This document shows, in pieces, positions 14,011 through 29,190 of a stretch of DNA of 39,141 bases. The notes below the pieces were generated by a model. It was not told the origin of the DNA. It saw only the letters and a program-made list of their open reading frames with translations, and did no database searches. This stretch comes from an uncultured bacterium (GTDB lineage Bacteria; Patescibacteriota; Minisyncoccia; Phycocordibacterales; CAIZLB01), in NCBI GenBank assembly GCA_903848795.1, contig CAINHC010000013.1, positions 1 through 39,141 of the forward strand, written 5' to 3'. Every line of letters starts with the position of its first letter. Within the stretch, counting starts at the first letter, position 1. The position numbers and the translations under genes were made by a program.

Positions 14011-14538
14011 ATGAATGAAGAAGAAATATCCAAAAAAGCTGTTAAATATATTAACAAAAATAAAGAGTTGTTGATTGAAAGGTTTGCGAATTCTATGGAT
14101 CATGTTCCTGAGGAGTTACCTATGACAATTTTTATGGCTGGTTCCCCTGGTGCTGGTAAGACAGAATTCTCAAAAGAGCTTGCTGAGTTTTATAATAACA
14201 CTGCCGTAAGAATTGATGCAGATGATATAAGAAATTTTTTTGAAGACTACGATGGCTTGAATGCGCACGTCTTCCAAAAGGCGGTAAGTATTGGAGTTGA
14301 TATATTATATAGATTTTGTTTAGCAAATAATTTCAACATCATTTTAGATGGAACATTTGCTCACAAAAGAGTTAGTGGAAACATACAAAAATCTTTAGAT
14401 AAAAATAGAAGGGTATTCATTGCTTTTATCTATCAGAGGCCTGAAGTTGCTTGGAATTTTACTGAAAATAGAGAGTTAGTCGATCATAGAAAAATTACCA
14501 AAGATTCATTTATAAGGACGTTTTTACAATCAAGGTAA
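14011..14538 (+). CDS. Zeta-toxin-like P-loop kinase, C-terminally truncated by an in-frame TAA
   Basis: FMAGSPGAGKTEFSKELAEF Walker A, RIDADDIRN, IILDGTFAHKRVSGNIQKSLDKNRRV, YQRPEVAWNFTENRE. Confidence 0.85.
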   Translation: MNEEEISKKAVKYINKNKELLIERFANSMDHVPEELPMTIFMAGSPGAGKTEFSKELAEFYNNTAVRIDADDIRNFFEDYDGLNAHVFQKAVSIGVDILYRFCLANNFNIILDGTFAHKRVSGNIQKSLDKNRRVFIAFIYQRPEVAWNFTENRELVDHRKITKDSFIRTFLQSR

Positions 14539-14965: not shown

Positions 14966-15130
14966 ATGGTTCTATACACCGTGTAAGGCTTGGGCGATAA
15001 TGTGGAGAGAAACAGTGGAAATAAGCAACCAGATTGTTTTCCCGCTGGACGGTACGCACGTTTGACCCGACGCTTGGCTGAAATGCTGAGATTCCCCGTG
15101 TGCCGAAGTGTTATATTGATGTATAGACTA
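14966..15130 (+). ncRNA. Candidate structured RNA (family unknown) ahead of a terminator
   Basis: Closing helix GT(T)CTATAC (14969-14977)/GTATAGAC (15121-15128); internal ccag...ctgg and gg(ta)cgcac...gtgtgcc helices; no convincing ORF; terminator at 15158. Confidence 0.35.
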
Positions 15131-15157
15131 GATATAACGCTGGGTTAATTAATTGCC

Positions 15158-15187
15158 AAAACAGAGGCGCTTAGGCGTCTCTGTTTT
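15158..15187 (+). terminator. Rho-independent terminator
   Basis: aaaacagaggcgc-ttag-gcgtctctgtttt, 13 bp stem with one G-U. Confidence 0.85.
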
Positions 15188-15250
15188 GTGTATGTTCAAA
15201 CGAGGTGGAACTTTTAATTTATATAAACCTTATTAAAACTTAAAGCGTTA

Positions 15251-15294: not shown

Positions 15295-16437
15295 ATGAAG
15301 AAATTTACGGCTGGTATTTATACGAATCAAGACCAATATAAAAGCTTTTTGCCGTCTTTGGTGAATGTACCTTTTGAGTGGGAGGATAGGGGAATAGACA
15401 TGCTCTTAAGTGAAGCAATGAGGTATCTTGGTGAGCTAAATGCTTATTCCAAGCTTATTCCTGATGTTGATTTCTTTATAAAAATGCATATAGCTAAGGA
15501 AGCTAATGCTTCTAGTGTTATAGAGGGTACAAATACAAATTTGGATGAAGCTTTATCTCCAGAAGTGGAAATTGCTCCAGAAAAGAAGGATGACTGGTCA
15601 GAGGTTCAAAACTATATAAAGGCTTTAAATTTTTCTATTAATGAAATAAATACAGAAGGAAGACCTCCATTTTCAATGAGGCTTCTTAAGGATACTCATA
15701 AAATACTTTTAGATGGTGTTAGAGGTTTTACAAAACTACCTGGGGAGGTTAGAACAAGTCAAAACTGGATTGGAGGGTCATCTTTGAAAGATGCTGTTTA
15801 TATTCCTCCACATCATACTGATGTTCCAGATCTTTTGGGTGATTTAGATAGGTTTTGGCATAATAAAAAATTGGAGATTCCTGAATTAATAAAAATAGGT
15901 ATTGGACATTATCAATTGGAATCAATCCACCCCTTCTTGGATGGTAATGGACGTATTGGAAGACTCGCAATTGTTCTTCATCTTATAAGTCTGGGGATAT
16001 TACAAAAACCAACTCTTTATATTTCGCAATTTTTTGAAAAAAATCGCGCGCAATATTATGATGCATTATCTAGAGTTAGAGCGTCTAATGATATAGAACA
16101 CTGGCTAAAGTTTTTCTTGAATGGTGTTGCTGAGACGGCAAAAGATTCCAGAGAGACTCTTGAGAGAATAATAGATTTGAGAAAGAAATATGAAGATTCT
16201 ATTGAGTCTGGAATGGGAATAAAAAGACAAAAACTTGGTAAAGATTTACTGAGGAAGCTTTTTGCTAAACCAATTGTTACAATTAATGATATCAAGGACC
16301 TGGTGCCAATGACTTTCCCTACAGCAAATTCAATCGCTAAGGATTTCCAAAGACTGGGAATTTTTGAGGAAAAGACAGGAAGAAAGAAAGATCGTATTTT
16401 CTATTTAAGAGAATATTTGGATTTATTTAATAAATAA
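15295..16437 (+). CDS. Fic family protein with inhibitory helix and C-terminal winged helix
   Basis: HPFLDGNGRIGR Fic motif; SSVIEGTN (S/T)xxxE(G/N) inhibitory motif; C-terminal wHTH-like sequence. Confidence 0.93.
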   Translation: MKKFTAGIYTNQDQYKSFLPSLVNVPFEWEDRGIDMLLSEAMRYLGELNAYSKLIPDVDFFIKMHIAKEANASSVIEGTNTNLDEALSPEVEIAPEKKDDWSEVQNYIKALNFSINEINTEGRPPFSMRLLKDTHKILLDGVRGFTKLPGEVRTSQNWIGGSSLKDAVYIPPHHTDVPDLLGDLDRFWHNKKLEIPELIKIGIGHYQLESIHPFLDGNGRIGRLAIVLHLISLGILQKPTLYISQFFEKNRAQYYDALSRVRASNDIEHWLKFFLNGVAETAKDSRETLERIIDLRKKYEDSIESGMGIKRQKLGKDLLRKLFAKPIVTINDIKDLVPMTFPTANSIAKDFQRLGIFEEKTGRKKDRIFYLREYLDLFNK

Positions 16438-16452
16438 TTATAGAATAACAAA

Positions 16453-18441
16453 ATGGAAAACTTTAATCAAAAGACGTCAATGATATGGAATATCGCAGAT
16501 ATTCTTAGAGGTGGATGGAAACAGCATGAATATCAAGATGTTATATTACCAATGGTGGTTTTAAAGCGTTTGGATTCAATACTTGCTGATACAAAGTCCA
16601 AGGTCTTAGAAAAGCACAATGAATATAAGGGAAAAATTCAAGATTTAGATCCAATTCTTAAAAGAACAGCAGGGGTTCCATTTTATAATATTTCTGATTA
16701 TGATTTTAAAACTCTTCTAGGCGAGCCTAAGCAATTAGCTAAAAATTTCAAACAATATATAAACGGTTACAGTAAAAATATTCAAGACATATTTGAAAAA
16801 TTTGATTTCAATAAACAACTAGAAAGATTGGAAGGTGGAGATCTTCTGTTTTATGTTATACAAGAATTAAATAAAGTAGACCTGCATCCATCAAGTGTGG
16901 ATAATTATCAAATGGGTCATGTATTTGAAGAACTACTCAGAAAGTTCTCTGAAATGTCTAACGAGACGGCTGGAGAGCACTACACCCCACGTGATGTGAT
17001 AGGTGTTATGGCAGAATTGCTTTTTGTGCCAGATGTTAAAGATCTTAAAAAACCTCATGTTATAAAAAAGATATATGATCCCGCATGTGGAACAGGAGGT
17101 ATGCTTTCAGTTGCCAAGGATTATATATTAGAAAATATAAACAAAGAAGCTGATATATTTTTGTATGGACAAGAATTAAATTCTGTAACTTATGCCATGG
17201 CTAAGTCAGACATGTTGATTAAGGGTGATAACCCAGATCTAATAAGAGGTGGGGAGAAAGATCATTCAAAAGCAAGTACGCTGTCCAACGATCAATTCTT
17301 TGGGGAGGTCTATGATTATGGGTTGAGTAACCCACCCTACGGAGTTGATTGGAAGAAAGACAAGGATGCAGTGGAGAGAGAGGCTACAAAGGGCTATGCG
17401 GGCAGATTTGGCGCAGGAACGCCTCGTATATCAGATGGACAGTTATTGTTCTTACAACACCTTGTATCAAAGATGAAGCCAGAAAAAGACGGCGGATCTA
17501 GAATTGGAATAGTCCATAATGGATCACCCCTCTTTACTGGTGATGCTGGAAGTGGAGAAAGTGAAATCAGAAGATGGATATTAGAGAAGGACTTATTGGA
17601 AACGATAGTTGCCTTGCCTGATCAACTTTTCTATAACACTGGTATAAATACATATCTATGGTTTATCTCAAATAGGAAGCCTGCGAATCGCAAAGGCAAG
17701 GTTCATCTTATAGATGCTAGAAAGTTTTACAAAAAGACTCGAAAAAGCTTAGGTAGTAAGCGTCATGAGATTGATCCTGATTCGAAAAATAAAATAGTTG
17801 ATTTGTATAAAAACTTTGAAGAAGGTGAATTTTCTAAGATATTCAAAACTACAGATTTTGCTTATAGGCAAATTACTATTGAAAGACCACTTAAACTTAA
17901 TTTTTCAGTTACAGAAGAAAAGCTAAATAATTTAAATAGTCAAAGCTTTTTTATTAAAGCTAAACAAGAGGATAGAAATAGTATAATCTCCGGGTTGAAA
18001 TTGATGGAAGTTGATAAGATTTACAAGAATAAAGAATCTTTTGAAACAGATTTGATTATTCACCTTAATGGAACCTTAATGTCCAAGGGATTTAGAGAAA
18101 AGGTTATTGATTTTATGTCAGATCGTGATGAAGACGGTATGGTTTGTTTAGATAAAGACGGTAACCCAGAATCTGATAGTGAGCTACGAGATTATGAAAA
18201 TGTAACATACGAGATGGATATAAAGGAATATTTCAACAAAGAAGTTAAACCTTATGTTCCAGACGCTTGGATTAATGAATCTGTTAGGGATCACAAGGAT
18301 GGTAAAATTGGTGTAGTTGGATACGAGATACCATTTACGAGGTTCTTTTATAAATATGAAGCACCAAGAAGTTTGGAGGAAATTGAGAAAGACATTGAGG
18401 AGGTCGAGAATGAATTGTTGGTATTATTAAAACAGCTTTAA
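16453..18441 (+). CDS. hsdM: Type I restriction-modification DNA methyltransferase subunit M
   Basis: IWNIADILRGGWKQHEY, YTPRDVIGVMAELL, DPACGTGGML, SNPPYG. Confidence 0.95.
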   Translation: MENFNQKTSMIWNIADILRGGWKQHEYQDVILPMVVLKRLDSILADTKSKVLEKHNEYKGKIQDLDPILKRTAGVPFYNISDYDFKTLLGEPKQLAKNFKQYINGYSKNIQDIFEKFDFNKQLERLEGGDLLFYVIQELNKVDLHPSSVDNYQMGHVFEELLRKFSEMSNETAGEHYTPRDVIGVMAELLFVPDVKDLKKPHVIKKIYDPACGTGGMLSVAKDYILENINKEADIFLYGQELNSVTYAMAKSDMLIKGDNPDLIRGGEKDHSKASTLSNDQFFGEVYDYGLSNPPYGVDWKKDKDAVEREATKGYAGRFGAGTPRISDGQLLFLQHLVSKMKPEKDGGSRIGIVHNGSPLFTGDAGSGESEIRRWILEKDLLETIVALPDQLFYNTGINTYLWFISNRKPANRKGKVHLIDARKFYKKTRKSLGSKRHEIDPDSKNKIVDLYKNFEEGEFSKIFKTTDFAYRQITIERPLKLNFSVTEEKLNNLNSQSFFIKAKQEDRNSIISGLKLMEVDKIYKNKESFETDLIIHLNGTLMSKGFREKVIDFMSDRDEDGMVCLDKDGNPESDSELRDYENVTYEMDIKEYFNKEVKPYVPDAWINESVRDHKDGKIGVVGYEIPFTRFFYKYEAPRSLEEIEKDIEEVENELLVLLKQL

Positions 18442-18495
18442 TAATTACTGATCAATTTGCCGGCGTCGGCAAGATGATAAAATATACAATAAAAA

Positions 18496-18972
18496 ATGGA
18501 AAAAATTACTGATCAACAATTCAATACCGTAAAGGAAAAAGCTGAAGAACTTTATAAGTCAGTTGGTGAAGTTCACTGTCCTTATTTTGGAGAAAAAATA
18601 ACTTTCAATGCAAAGGGACTAGAACACCTTAAATTCAAAGAGAAAAATCATGCAAGATCTAGTGACGATCAATACATGAGATTAAAATTACTCAAACTTG
18701 CACCCGAGGTAATAAAATTATCTAAAACTATTCAAGGTATTTCTGAACAGAAAGTCTTTGAATTAAATAGAAGTAATCATAGAAATGAACGTAAACTAGT
18801 TGATGCGGTTTACTATGAGTTTATAGCAATAATTGAAAATTCAAGAGTTAGGGTTATTGTCAAACAGATCGGTACAGCTCCTAAATATTTTTGGAGTGTG
18901 ATACCTTTTTGGAAGGTAAACAAAGATAATGGTAAAAGGAGATTCCATTACGGAAGTCCTGAAAATGATTAA
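18496..18972 (+). CDS. Hypothetical protein; possibly a BECR-fold nuclease-like family (tentative)
   Basis: 158 aa; KGLEHLKFKEKNHARSSDDQYMRLKLLKLAPEVIKLSKTIQGI ... YFWSVIPFW; co-directional in the RM island. Confidence 0.65.
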   Translation: MEKITDQQFNTVKEKAEELYKSVGEVHCPYFGEKITFNAKGLEHLKFKEKNHARSSDDQYMRLKLLKLAPEVIKLSKTIQGISEQKVFELNRSNHRNERKLVDAVYYEFIAIIENSRVRVIVKQIGTAPKYFWSVIPFWKVNKDNGKRRFHYGSPEND

Positions 18973-19009
18973 AAATATGATATATAAAAATGTACAAAAT
19001 AATACAACA

Positions 19010-19215
19010 AAAAACACCGCTTTTGGCGATGTCCTTTGTTGGCACTTGGCTACGGTTTGGATAAACATTGACCGTGAGAGGGCAAGCCCATCCAAGCGCC
19101 ACATACAGTGTACAAAATTCTCCGGAGAAAATCAAGTAATGCAAAAACCTAGCATTTTACTAGGTCTTGCGGAACGTAATCCCGAATCCACGGGTAGGAC
19201 GGTCAAGATGATCGT
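19010..19215 (+). ncRNA. Candidate structured RNA within the RM island (family unknown)
   Basis: GGCACTTGG (19041-19049)/CCAAGCGCC (19092-19100) enclosing acggt/accgt and gggcaagccc hairpins; gcaa..acctag(19141-19152)/ctaggt.ttgc(19160-19170); cccg-aatcca-cggg (19181-19194); gtcct(19031)/aggac(19196); locally higher GC. Confidence 0.4.
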
Positions 19216-19255
19216 ATCTATATAATATATTGATTTTTATAAAAAACAAGAAACT

Positions 19256-19738
19256 ATGAAAATAAACCTAACAAAAAAACAATATGAGGCACTAGTCAAA
19301 GCTGTATATCTAGGCAATTGGATGGCTAACGCACACAGAACAGGACGACCTAATGATCCTCACAAAAAAGAATATAATGAAATTGCTGATTATATTTATT
19401 CTCTATCAACAGAGTTTGGTCTACCTGATAATTATGAATATGAAGTTGAATTTAGCGATGGACCATATGGGACATCAGAAGTTGAAGGACTTCATGAAGA
19501 ATATGATGAAGATAGTTTTTGGAGTGAAATACCAGAGAGACTTGGAACAAGGGACTTTTTAAAGAAATATTCTAAAAAAGAAAGAGAAAAAATGACTGAA
19601 GAGGAACACTTCATCAAAATGCAAGAATGTATTATTCCGTGGGAAGAAGAAATTGATGATAATGGTATTGATAGATTGGAAATAAAGGAAGATGGGATTA
19701 AGGTCGAGGGAGAGTTGTTGGATTTATTAAAGAAATAA
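19256..19738 (+). CDS. Hypothetical acidic protein
   Basis: 160 aa ORF co-directional in the RM island; no family recognised. Confidence 0.65.
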   Translation: MKINLTKKQYEALVKAVYLGNWMANAHRTGRPNDPHKKEYNEIADYIYSLSTEFGLPDNYEYEVEFSDGPYGTSEVEGLHEEYDEDSFWSEIPERLGTRDFLKKYSKKEREKMTEEEHFIKMQECIIPWEEEIDDNGIDRLEIKEDGIKVEGELLDLLKK

Positions 19739-19742
19739 ATAT

Positions 19743-20156
19743 ATGGATAAAAAATTAAGAAAATATATTATAGAGATATTGAGAACAAAATCGTCGGCTG
19801 TAGCGATATCCGATTTTGAAGAAATACTACTTAATGACTATGGTTGGACTAAAAAAGAGCGAAAAACACTCAAGGTTTTTAAAAAAGTTGATGCAAATAT
19901 TTTTCATATAATAAATGTTTTAGAAGGTGAACGTCTAATTAGTAAAGTAGATGTTCCTTATACTTCATTTTCTCTAGAAGATGGTATAAAAAAAGATATT
20001 GTTAAATGTATTGAATTAACAGCGGTAGGATATAAAGAATTTGACCCCTTTTATAAAAAGCTCTGGGGATTTCTTAATAATGATTTTGCAAAATTACTCA
20101 GTTTAGTTTCTTTATTATTAAGTATTGTTGCTACGCTGATAAGTATTTATAAATAA
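19743..20156 (+). CDS. Hypothetical protein with C-terminal transmembrane helix
   Basis: FLNNDFAKLLSLVSLLLSIVATLISIYK C-terminus; 4 bp after the preceding stop, 1 bp before hsdS. Confidence 0.65.
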   Translation: MDKKLRKYIIEILRTKSSAVAISDFEEILLNDYGWTKKERKTLKVFKKVDANIFHIINVLEGERLISKVDVPYTSFSLEDGIKKDIVKCIELTAVGYKEFDPFYKKLWGFLNNDFAKLLSLVSLLLSIVATLISIYK

Positions 20157-20157
20157 C

Positions 20158-21429
20158 ATGCAAAAATTAAAACTTACAAAAAGATACGAAAAATATCCTG
20201 AATATAAAGATTCTGGAGTTGAGTGGTTGGGGAAGATTCCAGAGGGATGGAAAATCAATAAGCTTAAAAGGCTTTTTGACTTTCAATCTGGAGATGGTTT
20301 TCCTGATAATTTACAGGGTGGTCAAAATGGAGATATCCCGTTCATGAAAGTAAGTGATATAAATGGTATAGATCGTTATATTACTACTTCAAATAACTAT
20401 GTTGATTTTAAAACTGTAAAAAAAGAATCATGGCATTTAATCCCAATAGGTTCTATTTTAATGCCTAAAATTGGTGCGGCTCTTGGAAAAAATCACAGAA
20501 AGGTTAATTTAGTGCCTGTTTGTATTGATAATAATATGCTTGCTGTAACACCTAAAAATATTGTTTCTGAATACGGTTTCTGGATTTGGAAAATGTTGAA
20601 TATGTCAGATTTTGAAAACATTTCATCTGTACCATCGGTAAATATTGAATTGTTGCGTAATTATATATGCTTAATACCAAGTGATAAAGATCAGGAAAAG
20701 ATGTCTTTTTATCTTGATAAAAAGACAGACTTAATTGATAAAATTATAGAGAAAAAACAAAAACAAATAGACAAACTAAAAGAAAAAAGAAACTCCGTAA
20801 TTAATACCTTGATTATTAATGCCGATGGTAAAATAGGAAAACTAAAAAATTACATATACTTAAACCCTTCAAAGAAAATAGTTTCAGTAAATAGTCCTGA
20901 AGATACAGTTTCCTTTGTTCCCATGGAAGCAATTTCTGAATTAGGCGAACTGCAGCTACAAGAGAGAAAATATAAAGATGTCAGTAGTGGATTTACATAC
21001 TTTCGAAATGGAGATGTTGTTCTAGCAAAAATTACTCCTTGTTATGAGAACGGTAAAGCGGGTGTAATGAAAAGTTTGAAAAATGGTTTTGGGTTTGGTA
21101 CTACAGAATTTATGGTTATGAGACCAAATAGCAGTATTCTTGCCGATTTTCTTTATTACGTAATATTCTCAGATAAATTCAGAAAGATGGGTGAGGTTGA
21201 AATGAGAGGAACTGCTGGACAAAAGCGAGTAACATCTTCGTTTGTGATGAACTATGAACTATCTATTCCTGATATTAAGACTCAAGAAAGGATTATCATG
21301 GAGTTGAATAAAAAAATGAAGATATTTGGTGTATCTATAGCTAAAGCTGAAAAATCAATCTCATATTTGAAGGAATTCAAAGAATCTCTAATTTTCAACG
21401 TAGTAACTGGCAAAATTAAAATTAATTAA
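20158..21429 (+). CDS. hsdS: Type I restriction-modification specificity subunit S
   Basis: YPEYKDSGVEWLGKIPEGWKINKLK and two TRD halves separated by KIIEKKQKQIDKLKEKRNSVI coiled coil. Confidence 0.95.
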   Translation: MQKLKLTKRYEKYPEYKDSGVEWLGKIPEGWKINKLKRLFDFQSGDGFPDNLQGGQNGDIPFMKVSDINGIDRYITTSNNYVDFKTVKKESWHLIPIGSILMPKIGAALGKNHRKVNLVPVCIDNNMLAVTPKNIVSEYGFWIWKMLNMSDFENISSVPSVNIELLRNYICLIPSDKDQEKMSFYLDKKTDLIDKIIEKKQKQIDKLKEKRNSVINTLIINADGKIGKLKNYIYLNPSKKIVSVNSPEDTVSFVPMEAISELGELQLQERKYKDVSSGFTYFRNGDVVLAKITPCYENGKAGVMKSLKNGFGFGTTEFMVMRPNSSILADFLYYVIFSDKFRKMGEVEMRGTAGQKRVTSSFVMNYELSIPDIKTQERIIMELNKKMKIFGVSIAKAEKSISYLKEFKESLIFNVVTGKIKIN

Positions 21430-21438
21430 ATATAAAGT

Positions 21439-22116
21439 ATGTCAAAAACAACACAAAAACAACCAAATGTATGTTTATCAGCAAGAACTGTTGGTGTTCT
21501 AAAACCAATATTCGATCCCGAACAAAAGGGATTCAAAGCCCCTGAAATTATTGTTTACGGTACAGGATTTTGGATTAAAAATAAAAAAGTATTTATTACA
21601 TGTGCACATGTCGTTCAGCATATTCTTGGTGCGCCAATTGAATTAGCTGGAATGCTCGTTGTCGGTGGTAATGGAGTTGAATACAAGAAGGCAACAATAG
21701 CCGCTATTGATTTTGCACATGATATTGCAGTATTAAGCATTGAAGCAGATGAAAATTATATAAACACCCAATCTATAAATGGACTTGAAATAAATGAAGA
21801 GGAGATTGAAGTAGGAGAAAAGGTCGGCTACGCAGGATTTCCTCTAGGTAATCAATTGCTAAACCAAAAGCACTCGCCGACATATGCAGAGGGGGTTATA
21901 GGTCAAGAAATTATAAGTGTTGACGGACCAAAATGGATTCAAATTTCTGGTCCAGTAGTTGGGGGCTATAGCGGCGGCCCAATTGTTTTAAAGGAAAATG
22001 GAAAAGTTATAGGTATGGTGTCAAATAGTCCGTCGAAAGAGGCTGGTGATGCTGGTATCTTTAAATCTGTTCATGGTAAGCATATAAAAAGTACAGTTGA
22101 ATTAATTGAATCGTAA
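21439..22116 (+). CDS. Trypsin-like serine protease within the type I RM operon
   Basis: GTGFWIKNKKVFITCAHVV (His), HDIAVLSIEA (Asp), GPVVGGYSGGPIV (Ser). Confidence 0.88.
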   Translation: MSKTTQKQPNVCLSARTVGVLKPIFDPEQKGFKAPEIIVYGTGFWIKNKKVFITCAHVVQHILGAPIELAGMLVVGGNGVEYKKATIAAIDFAHDIAVLSIEADENYINTQSINGLEINEEEIEVGEKVGYAGFPLGNQLLNQKHSPTYAEGVIGQEIISVDGPKWIQISGPVVGGYSGGPIVLKENGKVIGMVSNSPSKEAGDAGIFKSVHGKHIKSTVELIES

Positions 22117-22120
22117 AAAT

Positions 22121-25102
22121 ATGAAAACAAAAACCAACACAAAAGAATCTGGCTTCGAACAATTCATCACAGAATACCTTGTTAATATACACGGATATAT
22201 TCATCGTGATACAAGTAATTACCAAAAGATAGAAGCAATGGATTCCGAACTTACTTGGAAGTTCATTGAAAAAACCCAACCTGAGTCTGTAAAAAAGCTT
22301 GAAGAACAGTATGGAAGTGATTCCATAATGAGGTTTTTTGAAAGACTTAATGAAGAGGTAACATCGCGTGGTATTTTGAGCGTTTTGCGAGATGGAGTAA
22401 CTGATCGTGGTATCAGAATCCAACTCGCTCATTTCAAACCAGAAGGAGATAAGAACCCAGAAACCAAAGCGGATTACGAGGGCAATATTTTAAGTGTTAT
22501 TAGGCAAGTTAAATATAGTCTTTTAAATGAGAATTCAATCGACATGATTATTTTTGTAAACGGTTTACCTATCTTTACATTTGAACTTAAAAATCAATTT
22601 ACTGGTCAAAATGTCATAAATGCTGTTTCTCAATATAGAACTGATCGTGATCCACATGAAAAACTGCTATCTTTTAAAAGATGCTTAACCCATTTTGCTA
22701 TAGATACTGAGCAAGCTTATATGACAACTCGTTTGACTGGTCTTTCCACATACTTCCTGCCATTCAATAGGGGGAATAAGGGATCTTCTGGTAATCCTGA
22801 TGCATCAACTGGAAAGTATAAGACTTCATATTTGTGGGAAGATATTTTTGCCAAAGACAGCATTTTTGATTTAATTGGTAATTTTATACAAGAAACCACT
22901 GAGGAGAAAGAAGATAAAAATGGAAAAAAGAGAAAAGAAGAAAAACTTATTTTTCCTAGATATCATCAACTAGAAACAGTCAGAAAGATTGTCAAAGATA
23001 CACAAGAGAGTGGTTCTGGTAAGAATTACTTAATTAAACATAGTGCGGGATCAGGTAAAAGTAATACAATTGCATGGGTGGCTCACAGACTTGCAGAACT
23101 TCATGACAATTCTGGTAAAAATGTATTCGATGGAATTGTTGTTGTTACTGATAGAAAGGTGCTGGATAAGCAATTGTCAAATACAATCAAAAGTTTTAGC
23201 CATGTAACTGGTCTGGTAAAACATGTCGAATCATCAGCGGAACTTAAGGAAGGCCTTGAAACGGGTGTCAAGATATTAACAAGCACATTGCAGAAGTTCC
23301 CTGTAATTGTTGATGCAATGGAGAAAATTGAAGGTAGAAAATTTGCTATAATCATAGATGAAGCACACTCTTCACAGTCTGGTGAATCCGCCGCTGATCT
23401 TCGTCAAGTTTTGACACTAGATGAAGCTGAAAAGGAAACTGAAAAAGAAGAGAAATTATTTAAAACAGTTGAAGACCAGATAAATGAGCGAATTAAGGCA
23501 AGAAAAGTTTCAAGTCCAAACTTAAGCTTCTTTGCTTTCACCGCAACGCCAAAACAAAAAACGCTTGAACTTTTTGGTACAGAAGATCCATTGACTGGCA
23601 AGTTTATTCCATTTTCTCTGTATTCAATGAAGCAAGCTATTGAAGAAAAGTTTATACTTGATGTTTTGAAAAATTACACAACTTATGAGACATACTTTGG
23701 TCTTTTGAAGAAAATAGAAAACGATCCAGAGTTCGACAAGAAAAAAGCACAAAGATTAATCGTTGGTTATGTAGAAAGACACGAGCACGCAATAGACAAA
23801 AAGACGGCTATCATGGTTGAGCATTTTGAGGAAAAAATATCCACACTTATTGGTGGAAAATCTAAAGCGATGGTGGTAACCAAGTCTCGTCTTCACGCCG
23901 TGAGATACAAGATAGCTTTTGATAAATACTTAAAAGAAAAAGGTTATAATCATAAAACCTTGGTTGCATTTTCTGGTACAGTAAAGGATATTGATACAAA
24001 ACTTGAATATACGGAGGGGCAGATGAATGGAGTACCAGAGAATCAGACAGCGGAAGAGTTCAAAAAGGATGAATATAAATTCTTGATTGTTGCTGAGAAA
24101 TTCCAGACCGGATTTGATCAGCCGTTACTGTCCGTGATGTATGTTGACAAAAAGCTTAGCGGAGTAAATGCTGTTCAAACCCTGTCTCGTCTAAATAGAA
24201 CTACTTATGGTAAGGATGATACATTCGTTTTGGATTTTGTAAATAAAACAGAAGATTTAAAAGAGGCATTTCAACCTTACTACACAACCACAGTGCTTTC
24301 TGAAGCTACAGATCCAAATATCTTACATGATCTGGAGAGAGATATTAGAGGTTTTAAATTCTTTACTGATTTTGAGGTGAATGGATTTATCGATGAATAT
24401 TTCAATGGAGCAAAGCCTGATAAGTTAAACTACATTATAGACAGTGTAGTTTCTAGAATCGATCAAGAAAACTTGACGGAAGGTGAGGTGGAAAGCTTTA
24501 AGACAACAATTTTTGATTATCTCAAAAAATATGCCTTCGTATCACAAATTGCTACTTTTGAAGATCCACAGTTAGAGAGACTTTATATTTTCTTAAAATT
24601 CTTAATTAAGAAATTACCCAAGCGAGAAAATCCTTTACCTTATGAGGTTCTTGAGGCGATAGATATGGAGACATATAAGATAGAAAAAAGAGGTGAGACT
24701 GATGTAGTGCTTGAAAACATAGAAGGTGTTATTGATCCTATGGGAAGTGGAGATCATGGTGGTGGTCTAGAAGATGAGACAGATGCCTTATCTAGAATTA
24801 TTAAAGAAATTAATGAGAGATATGGTACAGAATTTTCCGATTCAGATAAAATAATTTTAAATAGTTTAAGTTCCAGATTGTTTAAAAATGAGACCTTGCA
24901 AGGATCAGTTCAAAACAACAGTAAGGATTCGGCTAAGTTGAAATTTGATGAATTATTTGAAAACGAACTTGTGGATATGTTGGATAATCATTTTAATCTA
25001 TATCAAAAGCTAGATAAAAGTCCAGAACTCAAGAAGTTTGTTCAAGAAAGGGTGTTTGAGTATCTGGTTAGAAAGATGGATAGTGATAGTAATAAAAAAT
25101 AA
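22121..25102 (+). CDS. hsdR: Type I restriction endonuclease subunit R; ATG at 22121 preferred over TTG at 22106
   Basis: IIFVNGLPIFTFELKNQ nuclease motif, HSAGSGKSNTIAWVAHRLAE, IIDEAHSSQSG, FFAFTATPKQKTLELFG, FQTGFDQPLLSVMYVDK. Confidence 0.95.
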   Translation: MKTKTNTKESGFEQFITEYLVNIHGYIHRDTSNYQKIEAMDSELTWKFIEKTQPESVKKLEEQYGSDSIMRFFERLNEEVTSRGILSVLRDGVTDRGIRIQLAHFKPEGDKNPETKADYEGNILSVIRQVKYSLLNENSIDMIIFVNGLPIFTFELKNQFTGQNVINAVSQYRTDRDPHEKLLSFKRCLTHFAIDTEQAYMTTRLTGLSTYFLPFNRGNKGSSGNPDASTGKYKTSYLWEDIFAKDSIFDLIGNFIQETTEEKEDKNGKKRKEEKLIFPRYHQLETVRKIVKDTQESGSGKNYLIKHSAGSGKSNTIAWVAHRLAELHDNSGKNVFDGIVVVTDRKVLDKQLSNTIKSFSHVTGLVKHVESSAELKEGLETGVKILTSTLQKFPVIVDAMEKIEGRKFAIIIDEAHSSQSGESAADLRQVLTLDEAEKETEKEEKLFKTVEDQINERIKARKVSSPNLSFFAFTATPKQKTLELFGTEDPLTGKFIPFSLYSMKQAIEEKFILDVLKNYTTYETYFGLLKKIENDPEFDKKKAQRLIVGYVERHEHAIDKKTAIMVEHFEEKISTLIGGKSKAMVVTKSRLHAVRYKIAFDKYLKEKGYNHKTLVAFSGTVKDIDTKLEYTEGQMNGVPENQTAEEFKKDEYKFLIVAEKFQTGFDQPLLSVMYVDKKLSGVNAVQTLSRLNRTTYGKDDTFVLDFVNKTEDLKEAFQPYYTTTVLSEATDPNILHDLERDIRGFKFFTDFEVNGFIDEYFNGAKPDKLNYIIDSVVSRIDQENLTEGEVESFKTTIFDYLKKYAFVSQIATFEDPQLERLYIFLKFLIKKLPKRENPLPYEVLEAIDMETYKIEKRGETDVVLENIEGVIDPMGSGDHGGGLEDETDALSRIIKEINERYGTEFSDSDKIILNSLSSRLFKNETLQGSVQNNSKDSAKLKFDELFENELVDMLDNHFNLYQKLDKSPELKKFVQERVFEYLVRKMDSDSNKK

Positions 25103-25108
25103 TAAAAT

Positions 25109-25993
25109 ATGCCAATATTTAAAATAGAAAAGAATAAAGCAAAGCAATTAGGTCTAAAAGATGATGGATTTGGGGATGAATTTTCTTTGAGAGATTTTTT
25201 TGCCGAAAATCAAAATCTTGATGAAATACTAGGTATTAGATTTTTAGAAAAAGAATATAAAATCCCCGGTTTTAGAATTGACACATTGGGAATAGATGAG
25301 GATAATACTCCAGTTATAATTGAGTATAAATGGAAGGAAAACAAAGAAGTTTTTGCACAGGGGTTAGCTTATTTAAATTGGCTTCGTGAAAATAAATCTC
25401 ATTTTGAATTGTTAGTTAAGAATAAATTAGGTAATGATGTAGAAGTTAACTGGGATCAACCTAGGGTTATTTTGATGGCGCGAGATTTTAGCTTCCATAT
25501 TAAATCTGCAGTTCAAACTGTAAGTAATGTTGAATTGAAAACATATGCTCTTTATGATGACAATATATTGCACATAGAAAATGAATATAGTCCATCTATA
25601 ATAAAATTCCATTCAAAGACAAAGAAGGTTGCTAAAGTATATAAACAATCTTATGGTTTGGAATATCATCTATCAAATACAACCCCTGATTTGCAATCAA
25701 AAATAAATGAATTGAGAGATAAAATATTGCAATTACCTGGTGTAGAAGAAATATTGGAATTAAAGACGGGGATGATTTATAGAACAACAAAAAGTTTTAC
25801 GCGATTTCAAATTCGTAAAAACTTTATTCAAATATTACTAAAAGACCCAAAATATAAGGAAGATAAAAAAGTTCTGATAAAGGACGTTTCTGCGAATAAG
25901 TGGGGATATAGAGGTTTAGTAAAGGTTGTTGCAGATACAGATATTGAGTATATTTTTAATTTAATTGAGGCTTCTTATAATTCTACCCTTTAA
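25109..25993 (+). CDS. DUF5655-type protein with PD-(D/E)XK (NucS/DUF91-like) nuclease core
   Basis: GFRIDTLGIDEDNTPVIIEYKWKEN active-site pattern; C-terminal DUF5655-like region. Confidence 0.75.
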   Translation: MPIFKIEKNKAKQLGLKDDGFGDEFSLRDFFAENQNLDEILGIRFLEKEYKIPGFRIDTLGIDEDNTPVIIEYKWKENKEVFAQGLAYLNWLRENKSHFELLVKNKLGNDVEVNWDQPRVILMARDFSFHIKSAVQTVSNVELKTYALYDDNILHIENEYSPSIIKFHSKTKKVAKVYKQSYGLEYHLSNTTPDLQSKINELRDKILQLPGVEEILELKTGMIYRTTKSFTRFQIRKNFIQILLKDPKYKEDKKVLIKDVSANKWGYRGLVKVVADTDIEYIFNLIEASYNSTL

Positions 25994-25996
25994 AAT

Positions 25997-26239
25997 ATGA
26001 TTAATAGACATAAAAAAAATACCAAAAATGATGAGGCTCCTGATCCTGAAAAATACAAGCAAATGATTCTCGCGTTTCTGCAACAAGGCGGACCGATGTC
26101 CATGGACAAACTCGCGTCGCTTCTTTATTTAGCTGATTTCAATGCATACTATAAGGATCTGAAAAGTATGAGTGGTATGCAGTATCGTAAAAGAAAAGAT
26201 GGAGCTGAAGCTACTTATCTTCTTCGAAAAGCCAAATAA
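25997..26239 (+). CDS. Short protein resembling the N-terminal part of a Panacea/SocA-like (DUF4065) domain
   Basis: MSMDKLASLLYLADFNAYYKDLKSMSGMQYRK; 3 bp downstream of the preceding gene. Confidence 0.5.
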   Translation: MINRHKKNTKNDEAPDPEKYKQMILAFLQQGGPMSMDKLASLLYLADFNAYYKDLKSMSGMQYRKRKDGAEATYLLRKAK

Positions 26240-26276
26240 TATTCTTATGTTTTGTAACAATTACTATATTTTATAA

Positions 26277-26969
26277 ATGCCCCACCCTTTCCAAAAACTT
26301 AAGAGAAAAATAAAAACTTTACAAAGAAAGTCATTAAAGGCTGTCGGCTTTTCGACCCGACGAGCCACAAGACCAATAAAAATCTCCCAAAAACAAATCA
26401 CGCTTTCTGGTTCCGGCCACGAACAAGAAATTGAATACACCCTCCGTCTAAACCCTAGATCCAAATCCATAAGACTTGCCATTCACGCGGGTGGGGAATT
26501 TATCGTGACAGCACCGCCTCGGGCGACGCAAATAATGATTGAGAGCTTGATTAAACTTAAAGCGAATTGGATATTGGATAAAATAAATCATTTTAGAAAT
26601 GTCGCAAAAAATTCTAAAATCCCAAGAAAATCTAAAGCAGAACAAAAGGCGGAATACGCTCGACTCAAAAATGATGCACTTAAAATCGCAACAGAGAAGG
26701 TTGCATATTGGAACACCTTTTACAATTTCAAATACAAAAATATTAGTATCAAAAATCAAAAAACTAGATGGGGGAGTTGCTCGAGGAATGGGAATCTAAA
26801 TTTTAATTACAAAATCGCGCTAATTAGCGATAAGCTCGCAGACTATCTTGTGGTCCATGAAATTTGTCACTTGGGCGAATTCAATCACTCAGCAGAATTC
26901 TGGGCGCTTGTCGCAAAAACAATTCCTGATTACGCGATTGTCAGAAGGGAATTGAAGGGGGTTAAATAG
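26277..26969 (+). CDS. YgjP-like (M48/DUF45) zinc metallopeptidase
   Basis: KTRWGSCSRNGNLNFNYKIAL ... LVVHEICHLGEFNHSAEFWALV (HExxH with downstream His). Confidence 0.92.
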   Translation: MPHPFQKLKRKIKTLQRKSLKAVGFSTRRATRPIKISQKQITLSGSGHEQEIEYTLRLNPRSKSIRLAIHAGGEFIVTAPPRATQIMIESLIKLKANWILDKINHFRNVAKNSKIPRKSKAEQKAEYARLKNDALKIATEKVAYWNTFYNFKYKNISIKNQKTRWGSCSRNGNLNFNYKIALISDKLADYLVVHEICHLGEFNHSAEFWALVAKTIPDYAIVRRELKGVK

Positions 26970-27975: not shown

Positions 27976-28015
27976 TTGACATCCTGACATGTATATAATA
28001 ATATATTGGCATGTC
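27976..28015 (+). promoter_or_regulatory. Promoter and palindromic operator candidate of the Panacea toxin-antitoxin operon
   Basis: TTGACA (27976-27981)-N17-TAATAT (27999-28004)-N6-ATG; GACATG (27986-27991)/CATGTC (28010-28015) inverted repeat. Confidence 0.65.
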
Positions 28016-28850
28016 TAATAAATATTTTTCATTTATTAAAAAACTGCGAATGGAGAAAGGTCTCTCTCAACTCGAGATTGCAAAGGAGTTGGGTATTTCT
28101 CGTTCCTCATACATTTCGTTCGAACAAGGTAAAAGAGAGTTGTTTATGAGCGAGGCGTTTAAGATTTCCAAAATATTTCAAATATCTTTGGAGGAAATAC
28201 AGGTGGGGAGGATTTTAACTCCAGAACTTGCGCCACAAATTGTATTAAAGAATAAAAGTGCATCCCTCAGAAAATACAAGACAGATTTTGGTAAAACAAA
28301 GGTATTTAAAGACGAACCATATTACCGTATTTCTGAGCCTCAAGAGTACGTTGAAAAATTCAAACAAATTTTGCTTTACATTTTGTCAAAAATTGGTGGA
28401 AAGCCAAATATCGGTCAGACAGTCTTGTATAAAATATTATATTTCATTGATTTTGATTATTATGAAAAGTATATGGAACAATTAATTGGTGCTAGATATA
28501 TTAAAAATACTCATGGTCCAACCCCTATTATATTTTCAAAAATAATTAAAGAACTAGAAAAAGCCGGCAAAATCGAAACAATAAAAAGCAAGTTTTATAA
28601 ATATGATCAGACAAAATATCTTATAAATCCAGATACTAAAATTGATCTCACTGGGCTATCCGCAAAAGATTTAGCACATATTGACTGGGAACTGAATCGT
28701 TTGTCAGACCTAACAGCTGTGCAAATTTCAGATTTATCGCATAAAGATACACCATGGTTGGCAGCAAAAGATAAGTCTATACTTGAATATGAATTTTCTT
28801 TTTATCGTCCAGATGAGATCTCTGTTTATATAGACAATGACCCGCTTTAA
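28011..28850 (+). CDS. HTH (Xre) plus Panacea-domain (DUF4065/SocA-like) antitoxin
   Basis: N-terminal KLRMEKGLSQLEIAKELGISRSSYISFEQGKRE HTH; QTVLYKILYFIDFDYYEKYMEQLIGARYIKNTHGPTP Panacea-like. Confidence 0.85.
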   Translation: MSNKYFSFIKKLRMEKGLSQLEIAKELGISRSSYISFEQGKRELFMSEAFKISKIFQISLEEIQVGRILTPELAPQIVLKNKSASLRKYKTDFGKTKVFKDEPYYRISEPQEYVEKFKQILLYILSKIGGKPNIGQTVLYKILYFIDFDYYEKYMEQLIGARYIKNTHGPTPIIFSKIIKELEKAGKIETIKSKFYKYDQTKYLINPDTKIDLTGLSAKDLAHIDWELNRLSDLTAVQISDLSHKDTPWLAAKDKSILEYEFSFYRPDEISVYIDNDPL

Positions 28851-29190
28851 TCAACTACCAGAATTTCAAAAAGATTTCAAAAGGCTTGCTAAAAAATATC
28901 AAAGCCTTATTGAAGATTTAAATAAATTAGAGAGGTCTATTATTTTAAATCCCACAGGCGTAGGAAATAATTTTGTAATTCTTTATCAAGCTTCAAATTT
29001 TAAGATCATAAAAACAAGAATGGCTTGCAGAGCTCTCCAAGATAGGTCCATGAGGGTAATTTATGCATATCATAATGGTATTGCTACATTCGTTCATATT
29101 GAAATATATTTTAAGGGTGATAAGGCGAATGAAGATAGAGAAAGGATAAAGGAATATATTGAAAGTGTTGGTCGTAAATTTTGTTCATAA
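28837..29190 (+). CDS. RelE-like toxin overlapping the antitoxin gene
   Basis: EFQKDFKRLAKKYQSLIEDLNKLE ... IKTRMACRALQDRSMRVIYAYHNGIATFVHIEIYFKGDK RelE/ParE-like pattern; 14 bp overlap with the upstream gene. Confidence 0.8.
   Translation: MTRFNQLPEFQKDFKRLAKKYQSLIEDLNKLERSIILNPTGVGNNFVILYQASNFKIIKTRMACRALQDRSMRVIYAYHNGIATFVHIEIYFKGDKANEDRERIKEYIESVGRKFCS

Follow-up and report, generated by a model that had tools for sequence, protein, structure and literature searches.

The window analyzed here, 39,141 nucleotides (nt) long, is contig C13 of the genome of an uncultured bacterium of the Patescibacteriota (G000; 1.02 Mb, 98.8% complete). It contains a type I restriction-modification (RM) locus in which HsdM, HsdS, and HsdR are encoded together, and between hsdM and hsdS lies a two-part element that is our main subject. 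The first part is an LPD3-like open reading frame (ORF) of 158 amino acids (positions 18496 to 18972, plus strand), recognized from Pfam and from its relatives. The second is a gene for a small, Y-shaped RNA that converges on the ORF (19003 to 19103, minus strand), supported by model searches, covariation, a promoter, and a terminator. We predict that the protein is an RNase toxin and the RNA its antitoxin. The initial annotation had described positions 15295 to 26969 as one tightly packed, co-directional block of fic, hsdM, hsdS, a protease gene, hsdR, a nuclease gene, ygjP, several small ORFs, and a structured-RNA candidate. All of these ORFs are present where it placed them, and all lie on the plus strand. 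The RNA candidate proved to be real but had been assigned to the wrong strand: the RNA, its terminator, and its promoter are all on the minus strand.

Occurrence of the pair

A DNA search of G000 with the RNA candidate returned two further copies, both on contig C37, where they stand on either side of a 157-amino-acid paralog of the ORF (48% identical). These copies and that of the window gave a first RNA model (R1). A two-protein profile of LPD3-like ORFs (A2) was run separately from R1 over a class-level set of 238 genomes, which was used for both protein and RNA searches, and an RNA match lay directly 3' of the ORF in 30 of 30 fetched protein loci. With an improved RNA model (R2; matches counted at E < 1e-5), the RNA was found tail-to-tail with 32 of 37 protein loci; all 32 were convergent, with a median gap of 2 nt. 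Among the five protein loci outside this count, G231 has the RNA at a lower score, one has its ORF cut off by the contig end, G193:C20 has a promoter and sequence that by eye resembles the RNA, and two in G000 belong to a short subfamily whose RNA is upstream and divergent. At the level of genomes, 29 had both components, 1 had only the protein, 7 had only the RNA, and 201 had neither (Fisher P = 1.5e-29). The pair is found in about 13% of the genomes of the class, with a patchy distribution, and is mobile. Distances between proteins and between RNAs are correlated (Mantel r = 0.68, P = 2e-4), which shows that the two are co-inherited.

We also inspected 14 loci of the phylum because R2 matched them weakly or not at all. 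Twelve of these have a promoter and fold into the same Y, a shape that appears in about 3 to 13% of shuffled sequences in this fold check; as for the remaining two, L120 ends at a contig edge and L127 is ambiguous. The short LPD3-like subfamily (123 to 125 amino acids, with the Y RNA upstream and divergent) is represented at G000:C12 (16.2 to 16.8 kb), G000:C21 (77.0 to 77.6 kb), and G504:C31 (loci L148, L147, and L239). A CTTTAGAAAATCTTT motif precedes several of these short genes (L147 and L239) and also the zeta-toxin gene of the window (at about 13948).

The two components are not lost equally. Strong RNA matches accompany ORFs broken by in-frame stops or reduced to remnants in G021, G026, G086, G095, and G135, and about ten additional RNAs stand alone without an ORF. 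No intact ORF lacking the RNA was found among ORFs with readable flanks. That the RNA outlives broken ORFs is the asymmetry expected of a toxin and its antitoxin. Solo RNAs lie near genes for EF-G, typA, an IS66 transposase, Fic, and a RelE-like/Panacea pair. Three of them are themselves tail-to-tail with a gene: in G092 (L179) with a 110-amino-acid RelE-like ORF next to a Panacea gene, in G081 (L178) with an IS66 transposase gene, and in G201 (L180) with a Fic gene inside a type I RM operon, where the RNA follows hsdM-fic and precedes hsdS.

Among the 36 genomic contexts seen, four pairs, including that of the window, lie inside RM operons. In G123 and G231, the pair is situated between a methylase gene (HSDR_N_2-N6_Mtase) and an HsdS gene, and in G227 it is situated between type III mod and res; in all three, the ORF of the pair abuts or overlaps the methylase gene. 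Searches of plasmid and phage records found no relatives, and viral scans with protein queries gave no matches. One IMG/VR contig (L149) carries the RNA alone, behind a TTGACT-TATAAT promoter, together with a terminase gene match (2.7e-85) and a weak portal match. Three other viral matches to RNA patterns (L150 to L152) were discarded as chance, leaving L149 as the only real one.

Structure, strand, and promoter of the RNA

In the window, the RNA comprises a three-way-junction body (19038 to 19102), obtained by independent alignment and by folding, and a predicted intrinsic terminator (19005 to 19041). Its promoter has a TTGATT -35 box (19130 to 19135) and a TACACT -10 box (19107 to 19112) separated by a 17-bp spacer, and all of these elements are on the minus strand. 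Across 31 RNA copies, standard pairs fill 90.7% of cells and double-sided changes occur at 25 of 30 pairs. The covariation score was 0.466, compared with 0.153 for shuffled and at most 0.109 for slid controls, in an alignment that was fitted to the model itself. When the opposite strand was aligned separately with MAFFT, this three-way junction emerged again, and most of its stem pairs were intact.

Several features fix the strand. G-U pairs number 65 for a minus-strand RNA versus 24 for a plus-strand RNA, and 18 of those 24 fall in one marginal pair. Most copies have a minus-strand sigma-70 promoter (TTGACA-N16-19-TATAAT) just outside the RNA and pointing at the ORF. A minus-strand terminator is formed by the first hairpin; its U-run directly adjoins the ORF stop codon in most copies, whereas in the window the two are about 30 nt apart. 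A plus-strand RNA, as first folded, is ruled out by the G-U counts, the promoter, and the terminator. A single transcript from fic to ygjP should also not be assumed, because the minus-strand terminator (19041 to 19005) and promoter lie between hsdM and the LPD3-like ORF on one side and orf160-hsdS on the other. In all copies the RNA is a single unit of about 100 nt and not a tandem repeat array. Rfam contained no family matching it at gathering threshold; the best match below threshold, SpF25 (24.6 bits versus 48), was not seen in six other copies scanned. An integron attC-like site likewise seems a poor explanation: its core sites are not matched, and nearly every copy of the structure comes with a member of one ORF family. 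In the window, the minus-strand interval 19120 to 19235, just upstream of the RNA promoter, contains another hairpin that has a T-run (ACCTAG-TAAAATG-CTAGGT-TTTTT), together with a structured stretch, and may encode another small RNA.

Convergent genes that abut at their 3' ends recall the layout of the BsrG/SR4 class of type I toxin-antitoxin (TA) systems. If the pair were of type I, the RNA would base-pair with the mRNA of the toxin. The RNA body has no excess complementarity to the 5' region of the ORF or to its coding sequence (mean z of 0.17 and -0.03), however, and the compensatory changes preserve a fold, not a pairing. The product of the ORF is a 158-amino-acid protein and no small hydrophobic peptide. 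We consider a type I system to be highly unlikely.

We found a DnaA-box-like TTATCCACA element or its complement (at most one mismatch) ahead of the RNA in 23 of 39 promoter regions, in most cases directly before the -35 box; the expectation from shuffles was 1, and among regions upstream of other ORFs, 13 of 241 had it (P = 1.3e-14). Examples are L079, L080, L090, and the phage copy L149; the element is not present at the copy in the window. This element would suit a reading in which there is no toxin, the RNA is an autonomous regulatory small RNA, and the LPD3-like protein is dedicated to processing or chaperoning it, as would the genomes that have the RNA without the protein and the many pairs found among housekeeping genes. 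The ORF is often broken while the RNA is intact, however, and a patchy, mobile unit fits a toxin better, so that we regard the regulatory reading as unlikely.

The LPD3-like protein

The proteins of the family are charged and about 125 to 160 amino acids long. An alignment of 25 members has six invariant residues (P29, G41, H44, R54, A69, and F132) and five near-invariant ones (Q59, T78, Q80, S134, and P137). LPD3 (PF18798), which has been described as a domain of polyvalent phage proteins (PMC5512222), matched 13 of the 25 members weakly (best, 2.6e-6). A Pfam scan of the 158-amino-acid protein of the window gave LPD3 and chance matches only and revealed no ABC-ATPase architecture of the kind found in PrrC and RloC. 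The active site of BECR RNases is usually composed of a histidine in a helix and a serine or threonine in strand 4 (PMC5512222). H44 (predicted in a helix) and S134 (predicted in a late strand) would fit this pattern. A BECR-type RNase toxin is the probable identity of the LPD3-like protein.

The restriction-modification locus and its cargo

Gene identities in the window are based on Pfam and PADLOC profiles. The locus begins with fic, a SoFic-like adenylyltransferase gene that is part of the conserved core of the locus (15295 to 16437; Pfam Fic_N/Fic, PADLOC SoFic 1.6e-110), followed by hsdM (16453 to 18441; PADLOC MTase_I, 875 bits), which has relatives in the family at 81% and 90% identity. 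Beyond the ORF/RNA pair lie orf160 (19256 to 19738) and orf137 (19743 to 20156; C-terminal hydrophobic segment), which matched nothing in Pfam or PADLOC; orf160 came in together with the pair. Next are hsdS (20158 to 21429; Pfam Methylase_S), a gene for a trypsin-like serine protease (21439 to 22116), and hsdR (22121 to 25102), which starts at ATG 22121 and not at TTG 22106, the same point at which its G505 relative begins. Behind hsdR are a gene for a candidate defense nuclease (25109 to 25993), an 80-amino-acid ORF of unassigned function (orf80, 25997 to 26239), and the metallopeptidase gene ygjP (26277 to 26969; Pfam). All of these genes are on the plus strand. The initial annotation correctly noted tight spacing from hsdS to position 26239 (gaps of 9, 4, 6, and 3 bp) and a protease with intact catalytic motifs between hsdS and hsdR (H-D-S motifs TCAHV, HDIAV, and GYSGGP). 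The nuclease it called NucS/DUF5655-like is present, and its best identity is PADLOC PDC-S18 (3.9e-57, over the length of the profile). Its Panacea-like assignment for orf80 did not hold: Pfam returned no match, and the true Panacea protein of the window is encoded at 28011 to 28850, beyond the interval it covered.

Comparison with G505, the genome of a sister species in the same genus, revealed which of these genes belong together. It has an RM locus at the same chromosomal site, with flanks 83 to 95% identical and the order fic-hsdM-hsdS-[146-amino-acid ORF, reverse transcriptase]-hsdR-ygjP. The LPD3-like ORF, the RNA, orf160, orf137, the protease gene, the PDC-S18 nuclease gene, and orf80 are all missing from it. 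Of the ORF and reverse transcriptase (RVT_1) that G505 has between hsdS and hsdR (L234, 7501 to 9305), the latter may be a defense reverse transcriptase. In both G505 and G515, hsdS directly follows hsdM. Since the G505 allele has other content at the same site and hsdM adjoins hsdS in both genomes, the sequences indicate that the M|S, S|R, and post-R junctions are slots for exchangeable cargo in a fixed chromosomal type I RM site. On this evidence the protease gene is cargo of the S|R slot, the PDC-S18 nuclease gene is cargo behind hsdR, and the core of the locus is fic-hsdM-hsdS-hsdR. An association of fic with type I RM genes had been noted as known and is borne out, as fic adjoins hsdM in the window, G505, G515, and G256. 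In contrast, ygjP, which had been counted as a member of the RM island, goes with the chromosomal flank, because its 83% DNA identity to the G505 gene resembles that of the flanks and exceeds the 73 to 76% of the RM genes.

The segment between hsdM and hsdS that is missing in both G505 and G515 is 1.7 kb long. A 31-bp stretch at the 3' end of hsdM (18401 to 18431) recurs with 26 of 31 bp at the 3' end of orf160 (19701 to 19731), so it looks as if the block arrived with the tail of the donor's hsdM. These two observations, and the structure copies on both sides of the ORF on G000:C37, might instead suggest that the Y structure is the end of a mobile cassette, acting in insertion as a fold of single-stranded DNA and not as RNA. 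A promoter and terminator conserved in the correct order, the skew of G-U pairs to one strand, and a phage copy with a promoter and no ORF argue against such a role, which we judge very improbable.

The initial annotation had further proposed that the protease, the nuclease, and the small ORFs form with HsdMSR one evolved control or abortive module, for example, through proteolytic control of HsdR. Apart from the close spacing from hsdS to orf80, what we found speaks against this: these accessory genes are all missing at the same site in G505, no protease relative was found near any RM locus, and each HsdM locus examined holds different cargo. The lack of a conserved neighborhood with HsdMSR, which that annotation had itself named as grounds for refutation, holds for the protease, orf160, orf137, the PDC-S18 nuclease, and orf80. 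Across the 238 class genomes, the protease matched only weakly beyond itself, and six of six inspected matches were among housekeeping genes. No relative of it was found in 72,556 plasmids, of which 799 carry an HsdM relative, in the phages searched, or beside six HsdM relatives of the phylum, whose neighbors differ each time and of which only G256 shares fic-hsdM. The protease was therefore rejected as a conserved RM partner, and no support was found for its control of HsdR; a single evolved module is extremely improbable. The broader notion of a functional element embedded in the RM locus survives for the LPD3-like ORF with its convergent RNA, although not for the accessory genes named earlier. 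More generally, this allelic comparison indicates that RM loci of this kind can have swappable accessory genes, so that what lies together in one genome should not be taken for a single machine.

Relation to known systems and proposed mechanism

We favor, as reasonably probable, the reading that the pair is an RNase toxin held by an RNA antitoxin and used as cargo in RM operons. The RNA would be made constitutively from its own sigma-70 promoter and would bind the protein, holding the LPD3-like nuclease inactive. Shutdown of host transcription by a phage, or damage to or loss of the locus, could cause the RNA to run out, and the nuclease freed from it would stop growth. Inside RM operons, the pair may back up restriction as a second line, in the way that PrrC backs up EcoprrI, and the toxin could be neutralized by a phage that has the RNA alone. 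Of this picture, the sequences show the pair, its structure, strand, and spread, its insertion as cargo, and the phage copy, whereas the RNase fold and activity, the toxicity, the RNA-protein binding, and the trigger are predictions.

In type III TA systems, by definition, a bicistronic operon encodes first the RNA antitoxin and then the toxin (PMC5086642). Like ToxIN, CptIN, and TenpIN (PMC5086642), the pair combines a protein with a predicted RNase-like active-site pattern and a structured RNA, with a terminator between them. Unlike in those systems, the RNA is convergent behind the gene and has its own promoter, so that the bicistronic layout is lacking; it forms one three-way junction and not tandem pseudoknot repeats, and the protein is LPD3-like and not ToxN-like. 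Most plausibly, the logic of the pair is type III-like, while its layout fails the definitions of both type III and type I. For ToxIN, phage-carried RNA mimics neutralize the toxin (PMC3475682). In AbiF/RCd22, a toxin is neutralized by a discrete structured noncoding RNA through direct binding, as demonstrated experimentally (PMC12373285). Our pair would resemble it in joining a toxin to a discrete structured RNA antitoxin, with binding that we infer here, although the RNA motifs are unrelated.

Other systems offer parallels for the location. PrrC, in the type I prr locus, and RloC are RNase effectors encoded inside type I RM operons (PMC2610378, PMC3874165), and a minority of our pairs likewise place a predicted RNase inside an RM operon (the window, G123, G231, and G227). 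PrrC, however, resembles ABC ATPases and is kept silent by the RM enzyme itself, whereas the partner here is an RNA and most pairs are outside RM loci. DarTG2 is embedded in a type I RM island (PMC12255303) and is similar in being a TA pair carried as cargo inside a type I RM operon; its antitoxin is a protein, however, and its toxin is unrelated to the LPD3-like ORF. The weak sequence relation of the family to LPD3 would link it to phage BECR nucleases, but here the protein stands alone and is paired with an RNA.

Several observations weigh against the reading that we favor. The LPD3 scores of the window protein (20.4 bits) and the L195 protein (25.2 bits) are below the gathering threshold (27), no relative of the protein was found in the Protein Data Bank, and its single-sequence AlphaFold model reached a predicted local distance difference test score of 35. 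Most pairs are among housekeeping genes and not in RM or defense loci, so the RM link is recurrent and not general. The phage copy is a single one, of the RNA only, and the neighbors of the solo RNAs may point to a wider role for the RNA.

More tentatively, we suggest that the pair may represent an undescribed TA type of small-genome bacteria, which we regard as possible rather than probable. It would consist of a stand-alone LPD3-like RNase and a convergent RNA that forms a three-way junction, neutralizes the RNase, and is transcribed from a promoter of its own (in many cases with a DnaA-box-like element), would be placed repeatedly in RM operons as a second line, and would be countered by phages carrying only the RNA. 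The pair is a concrete protein-RNA partnership with a covariation-backed structure in bacteria that can hardly be cultivated and about whose defense little is known. It points to an RNA antitoxin arranged unlike those of type I and type III systems, tied to two types of RM operon and to a phage-borne RNA.

Further features of the window and genome

Both sides of the RM site have additional TA candidates. Upstream is a zeta-toxin-like kinase gene (14011 to 14538), and downstream is a helix-turn-helix-Panacea gene followed by a RelE/ParE-like ORF of 117 amino acids (28011 to 29190). Between the zeta-toxin cassette and fic lies a structured noncoding stretch with a terminator (14975 to 15190), which has no Rfam family; of five genomes of the same genus, one (G504) conserves it, at 77% over 141 bases. 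The genome also has a second RM locus (L007; G000:C12, 1 to 14 kb), with an HsdR-like gene, an N-6 methylase gene with its own specificity region, and a serine recombinase gene.

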